A stretch of 24,717 nucleotides of DNA. Origin: a virus. The position numbers were made by a program, and so were the translations under genes. Below, one piece after another: positions 3,167-15,750 of the stretch. The stretch is from the IMG/VR virus record IMGVR_UViG_3300007960_000175, positions 1-24,717 of that record. One strand, given 5' to 3'. The notes beneath the pieces are model-generated. The model saw only the letters and a list, made by a program, of their open reading frames with translations. It ran no database searches and had not been told where the DNA came from. How positions within the stretch are numbered: the first letter of the stretch is position 1; each line of letters begins with the position of its first letter.

Positions 3167-3238
3167 GGACGTGTGGTGTAATGGATATCATTTTGGCCTT
3201 CTAAGCCGAAGATGGGGGTTCGATTCCCTCCACGTCTG
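3167..3238 (+). tRNA. tRNA-Arg (anticodon UCU)
   Basis: A full cloverleaf can be drawn over 72 bases. The acceptor GGACGTG pairs with CACGTCT (a terminal G-U pair). The D arm is short. The anticodon stem TTGGC/GCCGA encloses CTTCTAA with anticodon TCT at 3200-3202. The T arm GGGGG/CCCTC has loop TTCGATT. The 3' CCA is not encoded. It would read AGA and AGG codons, both of which are used in the genes here. It lies between protein genes on the same strand and is followed 13 bases later by a second tRNA. Confidence 0.93.
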
Positions 3239-3251
3239 CCTATGTTTAAAA

Positions 3252-3326
3252 GGACTCGTAGCACAGTTTGGTTAGTGCATCCGGCTCATAACCGGACGGT
3301 CATGGGTTCAAATCCCATCGAGTCCA
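3252..3326 (+). tRNA. tRNA with anticodon CAU (Ile-AUA type or elongator Met)
   Basis: The acceptor GGACTCG pairs perfectly with CGAGTCC (discriminator A). The D stem GCAC/GTGC, anticodon stem TCCGG/CCGGA with loop CTCATAA (CAT at 3287-3289) and T arm TGGG/CCCA around TTCAAAT all form. CCA is not encoded. A G-C first pair argues against an archaeal initiator tRNA, which usually begins A-U. The loop and stem look like archaeal tRNA-Ile2, whose C34 is modified to read AUA, but elongator Met cannot be excluded by eye. Together with the Arg-UCU gene this would supplement codons often rare in hosts. Confidence 0.9.
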
Positions 3327-3349
3327 CCTATTTTTAAGGAATGATTACT

Positions 3350-3689: not shown

Positions 3690-4190
3690 ATGAATGATGA
3701 AGAAATTCAAATCGAAATGGAACTGCTTCCTGAAGAGTATGACCCTGTGGTGAAACTCTTGGAATTGCCCGATACTTGTTTCAAGTGTGAAGGTCCGGTG
3801 GATGACAACCTTTGTTGGCCCAATTACAATGAGGCCCACACCATTGAATCTTCAATGGGCTATGGCTCAAAGTGGGACACTCGCGGTTTCAGGATTGCAA
3901 TTTGTGACCGTTGTATCGCAAATGGTGTTCTCAAAGGCACTCTTCGTTTGATGCACGGTGAACGTGTTTGGAAGGATGGTGTCGGTCATTTCTTTGAAGA
4001 CCGAGTTTTCGGAACATTGACAGAAGACCTCAAACACGCACAATGGATTCTTGACTTGATGAAGGCTGAAGAAAAGTGGGAAGAATACGTTGATGGTTTT
4101 TTGTATGCACAGGCAGAAGTGTATGAAGAATACGGTGATGAAATCCCTGAATGGATTTTGTTTGAAATGAATCGAGGTGAAGAAGAATGA
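3690..4190 (+). CDS. acidic protein with CxxC pairs
   Basis: From ATG 3690 the product is 166 residues. CFKC occurs near residues 30-33 and CDRC near 72-75, suggesting a zinc-binding module in the first half; the second half is strongly acidic and helical. GGTGA at 3680-3684 is the best ribosome-binding match and favours ATG 3690 over the upstream in-frame GTG 3681. The protein ends RGEEE, whose codons lead into the overlapping start of the next gene. I do not recognise the family. Confidence 0.72.
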   Translation: MNDEEIQIEMELLPEEYDPVVKLLELPDTCFKCEGPVDDNLCWPNYNEAHTIESSMGYGSKWDTRGFRIAICDRCIANGVLKGTLRLMHGERVWKDGVGHFFEDRVFGTLTEDLKHAQWILDLMKAEEKWEEYVDGFLYAQAEVYEEYGDEIPEWILFEMNRGEEE

Positions 4191-5422
4191 ATTTGAGGAA
4201 ACTTGGAACAGGACATTGGGACCGTAAACTCATTGAGAGAATGCTTGAGAATTCGTTTTCTGACAACATTGATGATGCTTTGAAAGAATGGATGGCTACC
4301 GGAAATTGTTGGTGGCCTTCTCTTGCATCCAATACTCCTGATTGGGTTTCTAACCATCAGAACGGTGTTGGTTATTGTCTTTGTGGACATACCATCTATT
4401 ACCACTTTGAAATCACCAATACAGAAACAGGAGTAACTGAATGTGTAGGTTCAGACCACATCAACGCTTACATGATTGCCCGTAACATTTCTAATGAATT
4501 GGGGCTTCCTGTTGATTCTATCACCGAAGCCCAAATCAATGATTGGGTGAAGGTTCGTGTAAAGAACATGAAGGCTGACGCTTGGTGGGAAGAAAACGGT
4601 GAATGGTTCAATGGAATGTTAGAAGGTTTGCGTGAAGTTGACCGTTATTTCAACTATCAATTCAGCGGTCGAATCTTTTACGAACCAAAATACCAATGGA
4701 ATGTTAGGGCAACAAAGCCAAGAAAGAAGTCAGAAGGTAAGTTTGGCGACCCGAACTATCAAATGGCGTCTGTCTTTTGGCGTTGGGATGATGAGCGAAA
4801 TAGCCGCGCTCAAATCAATGGTAGTGGTTATCCGAATGATTCTCTTCTTGCTGATATCGTTGCTCTATCTTTTAGAAAGGAAGAGTATGCAAAGTATGCT
4901 AAGGCTCAAGAAGAGAAAAAGGAGCGTCGTCTTGCTGAGATTCAATTAGAGCGACTTAGGCATGAAAGGGAATTGGCTGAACGACGAGTCCTTGAAGCCA
5001 ATCGAAAGATTGAACACGGAAGGTCTTTGGCCGTTGATATTGACTTGATGGTTTCTAACGATGCCTTTAGGAGAAATTGTCGTTTTTATGGACTTGAAAG
5101 AATACGTTCTATTCATGCCTACAATTATGAGACTATGGTGGCTCTTAAACAATTTGCTTTAAAATTGTCGGATTCGGTTACTCTTTCTGAGTATGAAATC
5201 AGTCGTCTTGGTCAAATCTATGCAGATGATAAAAGGGTAACTGAAAAACAAATCAAGTTTATTGAAGATTTAGGAGGTGAAGCAGTTGGGCCTATGACCC
5301 GATATGAGGCATCGCAACTCATTAAGTCTTTATTGGCTCAACGTGACGGCGGGGATGAACAGGCCGACACCTTGAATCAGGCTTATAGCCCAAGCGCACA
5401 TCAACAGAACAGGAGCGAATGA
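4187..5422 (+). CDS. zinc-finger protein with coiled coil and DUF3072-like C-terminus
   Basis: A 411-residue protein. Residues about 63-95 contain YCLCGH followed by beta-rich sequence and ECVGSDHI, which resembles a small Zn-binding module (CxCGH plus a later Cys/His) seen in many phage proteins. Residues about 225-275 form a charged coiled coil. The C-terminal stretch beginning VTEKQIKFIEDLGG and ending in a short Ala/Ser helix resembles the DUF3072-type helical module found in phage and bacterial nucleic-acid proteins. A DNA-transaction role is plausible but not demonstrable. It starts at an ATGA overlap and ends overlapping the Ubl gene. Confidence 0.75.
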   Translation: MNLRKLGTGHWDRKLIERMLENSFSDNIDDALKEWMATGNCWWPSLASNTPDWVSNHQNGVGYCLCGHTIYYHFEITNTETGVTECVGSDHINAYMIARNISNELGLPVDSITEAQINDWVKVRVKNMKADAWWEENGEWFNGMLEGLREVDRYFNYQFSGRIFYEPKYQWNVRATKPRKKSEGKFGDPNYQMASVFWRWDDERNSRAQINGSGYPNDSLLADIVALSFRKEEYAKYAKAQEEKKERRLAEIQLERLRHERELAERRVLEANRKIEHGRSLAVDIDLMVSNDAFRRNCRFYGLERIRSIHAYNYETMVALKQFALKLSDSVTLSEYEISRLGQIYADDKRVTEKQIKFIEDLGGEAVGPMTRYEASQLIKSLLAQRDGGDEQADTLNQAYSPSAHQQNRSE

Positions 5423-5631
5423 CTATGATTCGACTACGCATTCTTAACGATACAGGACACACCGAGGTTATGCTTTCGGCTGAAGAAATCATTGAGCAAA
5501 TTGATACTCACCCTACTCATTGGTTGTTTATCAACGGTGAAATGGTTAGCCGTGAAGACGTGGCAACTATCAATTGGGACACAATTGAGAATGTTGACCT
5601 AACTCCAGCAATTGTTGGAGGTGCGTTCTGA
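5419..5631 (+). CDS. ubiquitin-like protein with C-terminal GG-AF
   Basis: This 70-residue protein fits the beta-grasp order: strand MIRLRILN, strand HTEVMLS, helix EEIIEQID, strand HWLFINGEMV, a loop with INWDTIENVD, and a last strand LTPAIVGG. WLFINGEMV lines up by eye with RLIFAGKQL of ubiquitin, and the INWDTIENVDLTPAIVGG segment with its last strand and Gly-Gly end. Gly67-Gly68 is followed by Ala-Phe, so a protease would have to trim two residues before activation. E1-like and JAMM genes lie 6-7 kb downstream. AGGAG at 5411 suits ATG 5425 (nine bases) better than ATG 5419 (three), so the first two residues are uncertain. The twin hairpins that follow suggest it ends a transcript. Confidence 0.72.
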   Translation: MTMIRLRILNDTGHTEVMLSAEEIIEQIDTHPTHWLFINGEMVSREDVATINWDTIENVDLTPAIVGGAF

Positions 5632-5661
5632 AGTAGTGTAAAACGCTTGGGCTACGCATTA

Positions 5662-5697
5662 GGGGGGAAGGGAAATCATCCCCTTTCCCTTCCCCCC
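5662..5697 (+). terminator. perfect 14-bp G/C-rich hairpin
   Basis: The arms at 5662-5675 and 5684-5697 are perfect reverse complements of 14 bases, one purine-only and the other pyrimidine-only, around an 8-base loop. No T-run follows directly. It lies 30 bases after the Ubl stop and six bases before a second hairpin. It may stall polymerase, protect a 3' end or bind a protein. Confidence 0.75.
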
Positions 5698-5702
5698 ACC
5701 TT

Positions 5703-5737
5703 AGGAGGTTAGTCGAAAGACTAGCCTCCTTTTTTTT
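5703..5737 (+). terminator. intrinsic-type terminator hairpin with T-tract
   Basis: A 12-bp stem (5703-5714 with 5719-5730, one G-U pair) closes a GAAA tetraloop and is followed by T8 at 5730-5737. This is the textbook form of a bacterial intrinsic terminator; archaeal RNA polymerase also stops at T-tracts. Its left arm contains AGGAGG, so in RNA the hairpin would hide a Shine-Dalgarno-like sequence. It separates the Ubl gene block from the RNR block. Confidence 0.85.
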
Positions 5738-5747
5738 ATTGAGAAAC

Positions 5748-6125
5748 ATGGATTTAATCTCAACAATCTCCGAAGGTGCTATGAAACTGATGTTCAACCT
5801 CAATGGTTGGAACTTAACTACACCTTTCGTCCATAATGGCGTTGCATACGTCAAACCAGACTTTTATCCCGATAGATTCATCATTGGTGTTTCTAAGAGG
5901 GGATACATTTATGCCTCCGGTGAGTCTCGCATACTTTACCGAGGGACCACTTTCACTTCCATTGAAGAATTGTTAAATCAATATACCAAATCAGCATTGA
6001 ATGATTTCAATGAATGGAAATTTCTTGAAGAAAAAGAATGGGTTATTACCCGTGATGGTCAAGAGTTTTTATATTCTTTCACTACATTAGATAAACTACC
6101 TAAAGCAAGTAAATTGAGGTGCTGA
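5748..6125 (+). CDS. hypothetical protein after the terminator
   Basis: A protein of about 125 residues, predicted to be mixed beta and alpha, with Tyr- and Phe-rich strands. The start is uncertain. ATG 5748 has no ribosome-binding match; ATG 5781 has AAGGTG only two bases upstream; ATG 5790 has it 11 bases upstream. As the first gene after the T-tract it might be read from a short-leader or leaderless message. I see no recognisable motif; it precedes the ribonucleotide reductase by three bases. Confidence 0.65.
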   Translation: MDLISTISEGAMKLMFNLNGWNLTTPFVHNGVAYVKPDFYPDRFIIGVSKRGYIYASGESRILYRGTTFTSIEELLNQYTKSALNDFNEWKFLEEKEWVITRDGQEFLYSFTTLDKLPKASKLRC

Positions 6126-6128
6126 AAC

Positions 6129-7982
6129 ATGAACACAGAAATTTTGTCGGACATTACCGTGCATATGAAATACGCTAAATACAACGCCGACCTACTAAGA
6201 CGAGAAACTTGGGACGAAATTGTTGACCGTAACAAATCAATGCACATTAAAACTTATCCACAACTTCAGGAGGAAATTGAAAATGTATATGAACAATATG
6301 TCAGAACAAAGCGAATCCTCCCGTCAATGCGTTCTATGCAATTTGGCGGTAAGTCTATCGAGATTAGCCCGAATCGTGTGTATAATTGTGCTTATATGCC
6401 TATTGATTCCCATCTTTCTTTTTCTGAGGCTATGTTTTTACTTCTCGGTGGGACGGGGGTGGGATATTCAGTCCAACGTCACCATATCGAACAATTACCA
6501 GAAATTCGTCATCCCAAAGCCGATAGGCAGCGTCGTCATCTTATTGCTGATTCTATTGAAGGTTGGGCTGATGCAGTAAAGGTTCTGATGGAATCTTATA
6601 TTGGAACACGGACTTCAACTCCTGTGTTTGATTATTCTGATATTAGACCTAAGGGTTCTCTTTTGAAGACTTCTGGTGGAAAAGCGCCGGGGCCTCAACC
6701 TCTTCGTGAATGTCTTGTTAAGGTTGAAGGTATTCTTCAAAACATTACAGATGGCGAAAAGTTGAGTCCTATCCAAGCACACGATATTATGTGCCATATT
6801 GCTGATGCTGTATTAGCCGGTGGTATTCGTCGCGCTGCAATGATTAGCCTTTTCTCAGCAGATGATACATCTATGATTGCCTGCAAATCAGGCAATTGGT
6901 GGGAAAACAATCCTCAACGCGGTCGTGCAAACAACTCTGCGGTTATTATGCGACACCGAGTTACGAAGGAGTTTTTCATGGACCTTTGGAAGCGTATTCA
7001 AGCAAGTGGTTCAGGAGAACCGGGAATTTATTTTAGTAACGACAAAGATTGGGGAACCAATCCTTGTTGTGAAATTGCTCTCAGGCCGTATCAATTCTGT
7101 AATCTAACAGAAGTAAATGCTTCTGATGTTGAAGACCAAAGAGATTTAGAAGGTCGTGTAAAAGCCGCCGCTTTCCTCGGAACACTTCAGGCAGGATATA
7201 CTGATTTCCACTACCTTCGTGAGATTTGGCGTAAGACAAGTGAGAAGGACGCTCTCTTAGGTGTTTCTATGACGGGTATTGCTTCTAACCGTGCCGAGCA
7301 TTTGGACCTTGAGATGGCCGCATTTGCCGCCAAATTAGAGAACAGTCGTGTAGCAAAACTCATCGGAATCAATGAGGCTGCGCGTGTAACTTGTGTTAAA
7401 CCTGCGGGAACAACTTCTCTTGTTCTTGGAACTTCTTCCGGTATTCACGCATGGCATGATGAATACTACATTCGTCGCATCCGTGTAGGAAAGAACGAAG
7501 CAATCTATGGTTATCTTCTTGAAAACCATCCTGAGTTGGTTGAAGATGAATTCTTTAACCCTACAGAACAGGCAGTAATTTCTGTGCCTCAGAAGGCCCC
7601 TGAAGGCGCAATCACTCGTAGTGAGAATGTATTTCAACTTCTTGAGAGAATCAAGAACTTTAGCATTCGATGGGTTAGCAACGGGCATCGTGAAGGTTCT
7701 AACACTCACAATGTTTCTGCTACTGTTTCCATTAAAGAAGATGAATGGGATAATGTAGGAGAATGGATGTGGATGAATAGACATTATTACAACGGTCTTT
7801 CTGTTCTTCCCTTTGATGGTGGGACATACACACAGGCTCCATTTGAAACGTGTGATAAGAAAACATACGAAGAATTGTCGAAGGCTCTCAAAGGTATTGA
7901 CCTAACAAGAGTGATTGAATCAACAGATGAAACTAATCTGTCCGGTGAAATTGCTTGTGCCGGTGGTCTTTGCGAGATTTGA
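6129..7982 (+). CDS. nrdJ: class II (adenosylcobalamin-dependent) ribonucleotide reductase
   Basis: At 617 residues this matches the monomeric class II enzymes (RTPR type), which reduce ribonucleoside triphosphates using coenzyme B12 as radical source. RILPSMRSMQFGG and YNCAY (Cys87) lie in the N-terminal part of the barrel. NPCCEI at 311-316 supplies the radical Asn-x-Cys-x-Glu (Asn311, Cys313, Glu315), and FCNLTEVN contains Cys324, partner of Cys87. The end CAGGLCEI carries the shuttle thiols Cys610 and Cys615. It is somewhat shorter than bacterial RTPR (over 700 residues). GAGGTGC precedes the ATG. With MazG and a deaminase it forms the dNTP-supply group. Oxygen-independent use of B12 implies the host can obtain cobalamin. 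Confidence 0.93.
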   Translation: MNTEILSDITVHMKYAKYNADLLRRETWDEIVDRNKSMHIKTYPQLQEEIENVYEQYVRTKRILPSMRSMQFGGKSIEISPNRVYNCAYMPIDSHLSFSEAMFLLLGGTGVGYSVQRHHIEQLPEIRHPKADRQRRHLIADSIEGWADAVKVLMESYIGTRTSTPVFDYSDIRPKGSLLKTSGGKAPGPQPLRECLVKVEGILQNITDGEKLSPIQAHDIMCHIADAVLAGGIRRAAMISLFSADDTSMIACKSGNWWENNPQRGRANNSAVIMRHRVTKEFFMDLWKRIQASGSGEPGIYFSNDKDWGTNPCCEIALRPYQFCNLTEVNASDVEDQRDLEGRVKAAAFLGTLQAGYTDFHYLREIWRKTSEKDALLGVSMTGIASNRAEHLDLEMAAFAAKLENSRVAKLIGINEAARVTCVKPAGTTSLVLGTSSGIHAWHDEYYIRRIRVGKNEAIYGYLLENHPELVEDEFFNPTEQAVISVPQKAPEGAITRSENVFQLLERIKNFSIRWVSNGHREGSNTHNVSATVSIKEDEWDNVGEWMWMNRHYYNGLSVLPFDGGTYTQAPFETCDKKTYEELSKALKGIDLTRVIESTDETNLSGEIACAGGLCEI

Positions 7983-7992
7983 GGTGATAATC

Positions 7993-8367
7993 ATGTTGTT
8001 CTCTTCTATGGAAGAGATGCAACTAGTTATTTTATCGTTAATCAAACAGGGCGAGTTGCCCTATTCAAAAAAGAAATTGTTGGTTGCATTTAATGCGAGT
8101 AAAGAATACTCTGATGAGAAAGACCAAATTTATAGAGTTTGGAAATCTCTTGAGCGTGAGTTGTGGAAAAATAAAACTGCTATTGATGAAGGCTTTCATA
8201 CTTTCATTCGACGTAAGATTGTCGAAATCAATGAAGCCTACAAGTATCATGATAAAAATTGCAAATCAAAATGTGAATTGTGCGAGGTTTTAGAATGTGT
8301 AAAAGAACTAGAATGTTTGGAGTCGCTCGAAAGAAAGCCAAAGATTGCGACTACATCTATAAGTTAG
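7993..8367 (+). CDS. hypothetical helical protein with Cys-rich tail
   Basis: From ATG 7993 (GAGGTGAT five bases upstream) the product is 124 residues, mostly helical and charged. Near the C-terminus Cys residues occur in the pattern C-x3-C-x2-C then C and C further on, so a zinc site is possible. It lies between the RNR and the deaminase and overlaps the latter by 73 bases in another frame. I do not recognise it; its position alone suggests a link with nucleotide metabolism. Confidence 0.65.
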   Translation: MLFSSMEEMQLVILSLIKQGELPYSKKKLLVAFNASKEYSDEKDQIYRVWKSLERELWKNKTAIDEGFHTFIRRKIVEINEAYKYHDKNCKSKCELCEVLECVKELECLESLERKPKIATTSIS

Positions 8368-14024: not shown

Positions 14025-14248
14025 AATTTATTTTTAGGTTAAAAAAAGCAATTGCTAGAATTTTGATTGGATATTTTATTATCGTTAATAGTCAATTTTC
14101 TGTAGAAGCATATTCGGACTTTTCCGCTACTGAGCATATCACTTTAAATACTGTTAGGCTTGGTTGGGTAATTATAGGTGTTGCTATTTTTGATTTTATA
14201 CTTACCCCTATTTTAGAATCCCTTGTTTTTAAGGAGGAAGAAGAATGA
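14021..14248 (+). CDS. small membrane protein between GroES and GroEL
   Basis: A 75-residue product starting at TTG 14021, with AGGAG about ten bases upstream. Residues about 11-27 and 45-65 are hydrophobic enough to span a membrane, with basic residues first, so a two-span protein with both ends inside is likely. It ends KEEEE, the codons being the GroEL ribosome-binding site. Membrane association inside a chaperonin operon is unusual; the role is not known. Confidence 0.65.
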   Translation: MKFIFRLKKAIARILIGYFIIVNSQFSVEAYSDFSATEHITLNTVRLGWVIIGVAIFDFILTPILESLVFKEEEE

Positions 14249-15750
14249 TTACTTATGAAACTGAAGTGAAAGAGAAACTAATGAAAGGTATTAACATCGT
14301 TGCTGATGCAGTATCGCCTACACTTGGCCCACAAGCCAAAACAGCGATTTTGCAAGGAAACCCGCCCGTCATTATCAATGATGGTGTTACTATCACAAAG
14401 TATGTTTCTCACGAAGACCCGTATGTTCAAATGGGTATTCAAATGGTTCAAAATCTTGCGGCTCAGGCTCAAGATAAATCAGGTGATGGAACGACAACTG
14501 CGTGTATTCTAGCAAGAGAAATCTGTAAAGGTATCTTTGAAGTTTATGATGAGATTCGAAACATTCGTGAATTTCAAAAGAAGTTAGACGAAGTGCAAAC
14601 CTATGTCCTAACTCAAATTCTTGAGAAGTCAAATCCGATTGAAGAAGATGAAGTTTATGAAGTTGCTTTCATTTCCTCTAACAATGACGCTCATGTTGCT
14701 GAATTGATTACTGAAGCGGTGAAGAAAGTAGGAAAAGATGGCGTGATTACAGTTGAAGAAGGACGAACACACGAAACACGTCTTCTTCTCCGTGAAGGTG
14801 TTAGACTCGATGAAGGTTATATGAGTCATCTTATGGCTAACAACGAAAACGGAACTTGTGAGTTTGAGAATCCTCTAATCTTTATGTCTAACTTGGCCTT
14901 TAGGAACTTCCAAGACCTCATGCCTATGCTTGAAATTGCTGCTAATCAATCTCGACCTCTCCTTATCATGTGTAAGGGAATAGAAGGTTCAGCAATGAAC
15001 AACTTGATTATGAATATCCTTCAAAAGACTGTTCAGGTAGCCGCCATTCTTTCACCAAACTTCGGTGATGCTCAACTTGACGAATTGGCTGACCTTCAAT
15101 CATTGGTTGGTGGTCGAATCTTTAATTCCGAAAGCAAAGACGACGCATCCTTAGTTTCTATTGATGAGTTTGGTTCATGTGAACGGTTGATTGTCGGCAA
15201 GGAATACACAACTATCATTGGTGGTGAAGGAGATGTTGAAGACAGAATCGCTATTCTTCGAGCATTGGCTGAAGATATGAAGGGCTACGATAAGAACAGG
15301 ATTAAATCGCGTATTGCTCGCCTGAAGGGTGGTGTCGCTACAATTCAAGTCGGTGCTTCCTCAACTATGGAAATGCGTGAAACAAAAGAAAGGCTTGATG
15401 ATGCTCTAAACGCAACACGCGCCGCTCTTGCTGAAGGAATTGTTCTCGGTGGCGGTATGACCTATGCAGAAATTGGCTTTTCTTTGGATGCCTCTAACGT
15501 AGTCGAGCGAATTATTCGGTCTGCTTTGCTCACGCCTCTTTTGGTGCTTATGCAAAACTCGCTTGTTACTGATGTATCGCCAATGAACGCCTTCGATGAT
15601 GGCGGCTTTAACGCTCTTACAGGTGAGTTTGGGACATTGGAGAATGTTTATGACCCTGCTCGCGTTGCGCGTGAATCTTTCTTGGCTGCTATGTCCATTG
15701 GTAGGTTATTCCTTACTACTTCTGTGGCGGTGTTGGTTGATGGTGAGTAA
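14245..15750 (+). CDS. groEL: group I chaperonin (GroEL/Hsp60-like)
   Basis: The 501-residue protein follows group I chaperonins throughout: ADAVSPTLGP at 20-29, ND46G, GDGTTTA at 80-86, GGVATIQVGA at 362-371, RLDDALNATRAAL at 383-395 with the catalytic Asp386 equivalent of Asp398, and LGGG at 401-404. GroEL is about 548 residues; the end lacks the Gly-Gly-Met tail. Archaeal thermosomes (group II) differ in these segments and have a built-in lid, so a bacterial-type ring plus a GroES-like cap is notable. It may fold a viral structural protein, as gp31 with GroEL does for T4. It starts at an ATGA overlap behind AAGGAGGAAGAA. Confidence 0.92.
   Translation: MITYETEVKEKLMKGINIVADAVSPTLGPQAKTAILQGNPPVIINDGVTITKYVSHEDPYVQMGIQMVQNLAAQAQDKSGDGTTTACILAREICKGIFEVYDEIRNIREFQKKLDEVQTYVLTQILEKSNPIEEDEVYEVAFISSNNDAHVAELITEAVKKVGKDGVITVEEGRTHETRLLLREGVRLDEGYMSHLMANNENGTCEFENPLIFMSNLAFRNFQDLMPMLEIAANQSRPLLIMCKGIEGSAMNNLIMNILQKTVQVAAILSPNFGDAQLDELADLQSLVGGRIFNSESKDDASLVSIDEFGSCERLIVGKEYTTIIGGEGDVEDRIAILRALAEDMKGYDKNRIKSRIARLKGGVATIQVGASSTMEMRETKERLDDALNATRAALAEGIVLGGGMTYAEIGFSLDASNVVERIIRSALLTPLLVLMQNSLVTDVSPMNAFDDGGFNALTGEFGTLENVYDPARVARESFLAAMSIGRLFLTTSVAVLVDGE

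Follow-up and report, generated by a model that had tools for sequence, protein, structure and literature searches.

The locus described here raises the question of what a pair of adjacent hairpins, the second followed by a run of T, is doing behind a short gene of a marine virus whose host is very probably an archaeon. The window, the whole 24,717-nucleotide stretch of IMG/VR virus record IMGVR_UViG_3300007960_000175 that was analysed, was first annotated from its letters alone, and the initial annotation had read the pair as a bacterial-style terminator at a gene block boundary. Our reading is that the two hairpins are probably a tandem RNA element which ends the transcript of the upstream gene in part and not fully.

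The hairpin pair and the virus that carries it

The features concerned, in order along the window, are as follows.

5425..5631, + strand: upstream gene for a 68-aa protein, a predicted ubiquitin-like (UBL) beta-grasp with the C-terminus PAIVGG-AF
5662-5697, + strand: hairpin H1, a 14-bp perfect Watson-Crick purine/pyrimidine stem, GGGGGGAAGGGAAA / TTTCCCTTCCCCCC, with the loop TCATCCCC
5698-5702, + strand: spacer ACCTT, five bases from H1 to H2
5703-5730, + strand: hairpin H2, 12 pairs (one of them a U.G wobble) with the loop GAAA
5730-5737, + strand: T-run of eight (T8), directly after H2
5748..6125, + strand: downstream p128 family gene (128 aa), its start picked from the alignment of relatives
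6129..7982, + strand: class II ribonucleotide reductase (PF02867, PF21995; phrog_367, E 3.5e-128)

H1 and H2 span the bases 31 to 99 3' of the UBL stop codon. Two adjacent hairpins with a T-run are present as first described, and the 14-bp stem of H1 is indeed perfect and split into purines and pyrimidines; the gap between the stems, given before as six bases, is five. For H2 the 12 pairs, the GAAA loop and the T8 stand, with two corrections: one pair is a wobble (T5709.G5724), which leaves the minus strand with 11 pairs and one mismatch, and the first T (5730) pairs with A5703, so that seven T are unpaired. The term gene block boundary holds with a reservation: both neighbours are on the + strand, the ATG at 5748 following ten bases past the T-run. 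Intrinsic terminators have a GC-rich stem of at least about 7 bp behind a stop codon, which both H1 and H2 provide, and a U-run directly after the stem, which follows H2 and not H1, the latter having no T-run of its own.

The region 5640-5760 folded at -50.7 kcal/mol, compared with -32.0 +/- 3.4 kcal/mol in 200 dinucleotide shuffles (z -5.6; none of the 200 as low). Perfect stems of at least 12 bp with a loop of 3 to 8 occurred 0.01 times per shuffle of the whole window and 14-bp stems never (100 dinucleotide shuffles), a count that bears on H1 only, H2 being excluded by its wobble. The number of candidate sites is ordinary: a simple terminator scan of 4000-8000 gave 5 sites against 3.1 +/- 1.5 in shuffles, and H2 had the longest stem in that scan (12 pairs; next 9). 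The tandem pair, which the initial annotation had proposed to look for elsewhere in the genome, is present in a single copy in the window, with no repeat. A search of the window at the Rfam gathering score returned two tRNAs, nothing else and no known regulatory RNA. Adjacent tRNA genes for Arg (TCT) and Met (CAT) were seen at 3167-3328.

The 68-aa protein had 23 invariant columns in an alignment of 33 sequences including the window. Its AlphaFold2 model (pLDDT 89) was compared by Foldseek, in which ubiquitin and NEDD8 came top and MoaD-/ThiS-type proteins were among the 50 matches listed, at E 5e-3 to 5e-2; none of those 50 reached E <= 0.001. The C-terminus of the family carries an invariant GG at or near the end, with an exact GG ending in some relatives (L006, L124, L128). 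The start of p128 is most likely ATG 5748, according to the alignment; the 20 bases upstream of it have no match of at least four letters to AGGAGGTGATC, and the same is true of 5 of the 26 starts inspected.

The window also encodes a TFIIB-type zinc ribbon protein (PF08271; phmmer to TFIIB chains, E 9.5e-5), a chaperonin and an ATP-dependent DNA ligase. The full TFIIB cyclin fold (PF00382) had no match in the window. The chaperonin (14245-15750) was nearest to GroEL of Vibrio phages, with 37.8% identity, in a comparison that covered a phage collection. In the nearest relative, the 92-kb genome G001, PolB is encoded in two ORFs, a ligase domain lies in a structural-block ORF, the capsid protein is of SU10 type, and an AAA clamp loader has a weak match to Rep_fac_C (E 0.0017) with RFC small subunits of haloviruses as its best matches; an ORF presumed to encode the sliding clamp had no match in Pfam. 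In a collection of 50,697 phage records the major capsid candidate of G001 had 11 matches (E <= 1e-5), and all 11 are archaeal viruses, some of them duplicate records of one virus. The ORFs of G001 of at least 150 aa form two convergent blocks on opposite strands, with one switch.

In the ICTV profiles of two families of the order Magrovirales, Aoguangviridae and Apasviridae, viruses of marine archaea have genomes of 90-110 kb, with split PolB, RFC, TFB, ligase and GroEL in the replication block and morphogenesis genes on the opposite strand (PMC10768690, PMC12999244). In these profiles Aoguangviridae carry GroEL and magroviruses are known solely from metagenomes. The genes of G001 and of the window and the two-strand plan of G001 agree with the profile descriptions, the phage collection having yielded no named magrovirus genome for comparison, and the capsid candidate of G001 is related to those of archaeal tailed viruses. 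Judged by gene content, the window represents part of a genome of magrovirus type, a group of archaeal tailed viruses. The capsid matches of G001 and its two-block plan, as in the Magrovirales profiles, make an archaeal host of the window virus very probable; the phage-like GroEL of the window and the missing match to the full TFIIB domain are the points that speak against certainty.

The UBL gene end and the block junction in relatives

To collect relatives, viral contigs were scanned with three queries, namely the reductase and the 68-aa and 128-aa proteins, and of the 138 relatives that the UBL alignment brought up 80 were kept. L131, L150, L153 and L155, whose UBL ends did not match the pattern used, were left out of the counts (two of the four have a hairpin with a T-run and two a long stem of the ORF-start type described below). 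The resulting 80 loci are the window, 76 of the 80 kept relatives and L006, L008 and L009. They are represented by 48 loci including the window, chosen at less than 90% identity over the 150 bases behind the 68-aa gene. The controls were the ends of 445 further + strand ORFs from these loci, mechanical ORFs of at least 60 aa and not proven genes. One IMG/VR contig, 3300021958_000021 (184 kb), carries two different UBL loci (L115 and L139) about 93 kb apart; it is about twice the usual genome size and perhaps represents two joined genomes. The UBL gene is also found on contigs NZTP01000027.1 (L242) and NZTP01000030.1 (L243) of an Altibacter MAG (isolate EAC109), which are probably misbinned viral contigs.

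A hairpin of -15 kcal/mol or better was found within 130 nt of the UBL stop in 43 of the 48 representatives, compared with 14 of the 445 control ends; at -20 kcal/mol or better the counts were 42/48 and 2/445. The median best hairpin was -25.6 kcal/mol over all 48 loci and -8.6 kcal/mol over the 445 controls. At least five T (T5+) stood beside a hairpin of -12 kcal/mol or better at 29 of the 48 UBL ends (25 with a narrower T-run window) and at none of the 445 control ends. The loci with hairpins weaker than -15 kcal/mol were L098, L100, L123, L132 and L152. In L123 a larger, branched hairpin is followed by T7, and L142 has T8; both T-runs were missed by the T5+ rule. When these two are subtracted from the 19 loci without T5+ by the rule, 17 are left: five belong to the ORF-start type, and the other 12 (for example L120, L124, L127 and L135) show the hairpin only. 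A pure terminator does not explain these 12 hairpin-only loci.

The hairpin is kept where the next gene is p128, reductase (L158), MxLF (L087, L120, L135) or a gene outside these three kinds (L118, L124, L127, L161, L162), and it therefore belongs to the 3' end of the UBL gene. Judged by its sequence, the hairpin pair is neither a product of chance nor a local peculiarity. Loci of the ORF-start type (L095, L098, L100, L132, L152) have a long rod-like stem in which the opening codons of the following ORF are included, and L095 is of this type although it counts among the 43. Termination within such a stem would be harmful, which argues against the terminator reading at these loci. The ORF-start stem covers the first ~27 codons of an MPLF-type ORF directly after UBL, also in L150 and L153. 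It begins about 40 bases past the UBL stop and has -34 to -43 kcal/mol, with letters that vary among genomes; in the five loci named its z was -5 to -9 against letter shuffles.

Seven of the nine larger relatives (G001-G005, G007 and G008; G006 and G009 left out) were scanned over their full length. In 7/7 a hairpin with a T-run lies where the replication and structural blocks converge. In six genomes the junction hairpin is behind a gene with a similar-looking C-terminus, as compared by eye. The junction hairpin of G008 (38169-38221), with T-runs on both strands, was found in a looser scan only and is absent from the T-run hairpins of the strict scan. The end of a convergent gene block is a place where terminators are needed. 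To judge from their genes, the two blocks would be an early and a late one.

The strict scan (-15 kcal/mol or better, T5+) gave 1-6 sites per genome in the seven magrovirus-type genomes. It gave no site in phage T4 (a 50-kb stretch) and one each in HVTV-1 (100 kb) and vir335 (50 kb), the last two both with 58% GC. These counts, from a scan uncalibrated on known terminators, make the density of hairpins with T-runs a weak measure for comparing virus groups, and we did not adopt it. Strong hairpins were also seen after ORFs that resemble each other by eye at G001 7555-7589 (L209; 182 aa; no T-run) and at G008 72741-72772 (L227; 165 aa; T8), possibly a third conserved site.

The main rival to termination is stabilisation without it. 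The hairpins would then be an mRNA 3'-end stabiliser or processing site, blocking 3'-5' exonucleases or being cut nearby, with no true termination. Such a role fits the hairpin being kept more often than the T-run, with the 12 representatives that lack T5+, and it fits the other strong structure behind the UBL stop in L098, L100, L132 and L152 (in form also in L095) and in two of the four dropped loci. What the sequences compared share most widely is a strong structure after UBL. We nevertheless regard this explanation as rather unlikely, for it leaves unexplained both the T5-8 directly after the stem in 29/48 loci and the junction hairpin with its T-run in all seven genomes.

Spacing, coding-strand polarity and covariation

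The T-run is 4-14 bases from the next ATG in 27 of 31 loci, and in 16 of the 31 the distance is exactly 5. In 14 of the 25 relatives' hairpins examined the sequence is T5-6, GGGTG (or CGGGTG) and ATG. Examples with GGGTG are L091, L093, L101 and L112, and CAGTG and GAGTG were seen in the same five-base joint; the GGTG in it is possibly Shine-Dalgarno-like. An archaeal promoter (TATA box and BRE) does not fit into the 4-14 bases behind the T-run, so p128 and the reductase should be transcribed by read-through or from a start that lies 5' of the hairpin. From this spacing we infer that the element would be partial, or leaky.

A start upstream of the hairpin could also make the hairpin an attenuator: if the stretch from the UBL stop to the hairpin held a promoter, the hairpin and U-run would lie in the p128-reductase leader and decide on completion of the transcript. 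The U-run ending exactly 5 bases before ATG in about half of the loci suggests such a link to the downstream start. This explanation is improbable, given that the hairpin is kept when the downstream gene is swapped, that the -60 region has no common TATA-like element (by eye only) and that the Rfam result for the window is limited to the two tRNAs. We also considered a promoter within the hairpin loop, as AT-rich loops (TTTAAT) lie about 30 bases before the ATG in some relatives (by eye). The AT-rich loop is absent from the window, L083, L084, L128, L133 and L140, and the idea was dropped.

The initial annotation had proposed covariation of the stems in related genomes as a check, and had named stems not preserved in relatives as the outcome that would count against it. 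The stems are preserved, with covariation. In an alignment of 16 relatives, in which L125 and L090 were included despite their poorer fit, 94.6% of the stem cells were paired and 9 of 15 stem pairs had changed on both sides. Double-change cells numbered 43 compared with 15.1 in shuffles (0/500 reached 43), and the covariation score was 0.458 compared with 0.209 (0/500). When the partners were slid by 1-3 columns, pairing over the whole structure was 48.5-59.1%, compared with 93.4% in the true register. Two of the five covariation measures did not exceed shuffles, namely how many pairs had changed in both partners (9 vs 7.8; 119 of 500 shuffles reached it) and how many further pair types occurred (23 vs 20.8; 70 of 500). 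The outer GGGG/CCCC was invariant in this alignment. For another, smaller hairpin (GGGTGATGnnACCC), whose loop contains the start codon, 89% of the cells were paired and no pair had changed on both sides, and RNAalifold draws a different fold; we make no claim for it.

The strand on which the element acts was judged from the best hairpin per strand in all 48 loci. There were 116 G.U pairs on the coding strand vs 23 on the other, a bias that strand-biased C-to-T mutation may have inflated; such one-strand mutation bias hardly accounts for the double changes. By locus, 40 leaned to +, 3 to - and 5 were ties, related loci not being independent. The fold was stronger on the coding strand in 44/48 loci (mean -24.4 vs -16.7 kcal/mol), and T5+ stood beside the hairpin on + in 29 loci and on - in 0. 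This unselected test is preferred to an earlier one of 43 loci picked by + strand energy, which gave 106 vs 11. Because the G.U wobbles fit mainly the coding strand and a DNA element would be indifferent to strand, the element acts as RNA.

These data bear directly on a DNA-level element such as a cruciform, a replication origin or a packaging or protein-binding site, for which the perfect inverted repeat of H1 with its purine/pyrimidine split might speak. Such an element is very improbable, as one RNA strand is favoured in G.U pairs, equal pairing on both strands was not found, and the stem letters vary with pairing kept, except for the invariant outer GGGG/CCCC.

At the matching site of the nearest relative (L083 in G001) there are two hairpins, GGGGAAAGAAGAC/GTCTTCTTTCCCC and GGGGAGGGAATAGCC/GGCTTTCCTTCCCC, six bases apart (TCCATT) and followed by T7. 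Their stem letters differ from those of the window, with the fold kept, and CATCCC is common to the first loops of both. Only three of the 48 loci, the window, L083 and L135, have two strong hairpins in a space of 170 bases, L135 without a T-run. Since the window and L083 are the only two of 48 with both doubling and a T-run, this combination is a habit of a small branch. The suggestion that H1 could mark a separate regulatory or protein-binding site found no support of its own; the strand test and the counterpart of H1 in L083, with other stem letters, disfavour it.

It had also been proposed that H2 hides AGGAGG; that H2 thereby sequesters a Shine-Dalgarno sequence and controls translation of the next gene is hardly credible, for although AGGAGG is the 5' arm of H2 and AGGAGG or AGGAG precedes other genes of the window, it is the 5' arm in 0/25 relatives' hairpins (all begin with GGGG) and not in L083 either, and in the window 40 bases, the 3' arm of H2 among them, separate it from the ATG.

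The proposed element and known termination systems

The best reading of the element is a putative leaky intrinsic terminator or 3'-end-forming hairpin. That many relatives keep the stem while much of its lettering changes suggests that the hairpins help to end or protect transcripts in archaea, which are not regarded as needing them. In the proposed course of events, the archaeal host RNA polymerase would transcribe the UBL gene, and H1 and then H2 would fold behind it. The U-run would weaken the RNA:DNA hybrid, and much of the polymerase would be released there, the stem shielding the 3' end so formed. Polymerase that continued past the element would go on to transcribe the 128-aa gene and the reductase, so that the element would set a high UBL:reductase ratio. 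The central claim of the initial annotation, a terminator of bacterial shape in a probable archaeal virus, is supported by the anatomy, the covarying conservation and the seven junctions; that it would also act as a terminator is our proposal.

For most of the archaeal terminators mapped to date a U-tract is enough (PMC8716108), and in known archaeal terminators a U-run suffices (PMC7289017). At a Pyrococcus terminator a hairpin made no difference (PMC2253867), and a stem-loop helped termination in Methanothermobacter (Santangelo and Reeve 2006, as cited in PMC2253867). In Haloferax, hairpins were reported upstream of 503 termination sites, and a hairpin (S12) tested in a reporter terminated 59% of transcripts, with read-through (PMC7237163). 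Zenkin suggested that stem-dependent termination may be ancestral (PMC4075513).

Like bacterial intrinsic (Rho-independent) terminators, the element has a GC-rich hairpin with a U-run, coding-strand polarity and a place at gene ends and convergent junctions. Unlike them, it belongs to a virus of archaeal type, with a non-bacterial host polymerase, its T-run mostly lies 4-14 bases before the next start (27/31), and about a third of the representatives have no U-run. Two adjacent hairpins behind a stop codon are also known among bacterial single and double-adjacent hairpin terminators (PMC8355165). These differ in host domain, and here the tandem with a T-run is confined to two of the 48 loci.

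The element shares with archaeal oligo(dT) or aCPSF1/FttA-assisted termination a U-run of 5-8 on the non-template strand at a gene end, but such termination needs no hairpin (PMC8716108, PMC2253867), whereas of the two features the hairpin is the more widely kept at the present loci. Set against the archaeal U-tract rule (4-7 or more U, no hairpin required), the U-run is present and the hairpin is nonetheless conserved. The closest archaeal likenesses are Haloferax volcanii S12 and Methanothermobacter, in which an RNA stem aids termination by the archaeal polymerase, with read-through (PMC7237163, PMC2253867). The S12 hairpin is in a coding region (PMC7237163), whereas the present one covaries at a fixed locus over many viruses. 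A search of the literature, in which subscription journals were mostly outside, found no published account of magrovirus terminators. No literature on transcription termination in Poseidoniales was found, and none on hairpin or Rho-independent terminators conserved in archaeal viruses as here, the latter judged mostly by title.

A stronger claim, which we put forward tentatively as a possibility, is that the archaeal polymerase performs hairpin-dependent intrinsic termination at dedicated magrovirus sites, the stem, and not the U-run alone, driving release, and the stems kept and re-lettered after the UBL gene and at the convergent junction tuning gene dosage. If this is true, hairpin-dependent termination would be a working mechanism outside bacteria. 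In the reports cited above, the response of archaeal polymerase to RNA stems differs by system, with none in Pyrococcus and some in Methanothermobacter and Haloferax. A set of covarying hairpins with U-runs, at the same two places in many genomes, would offer natural variants for testing that response. For viruses known from metagenomes alone, the element would also serve as a regulatory landmark.
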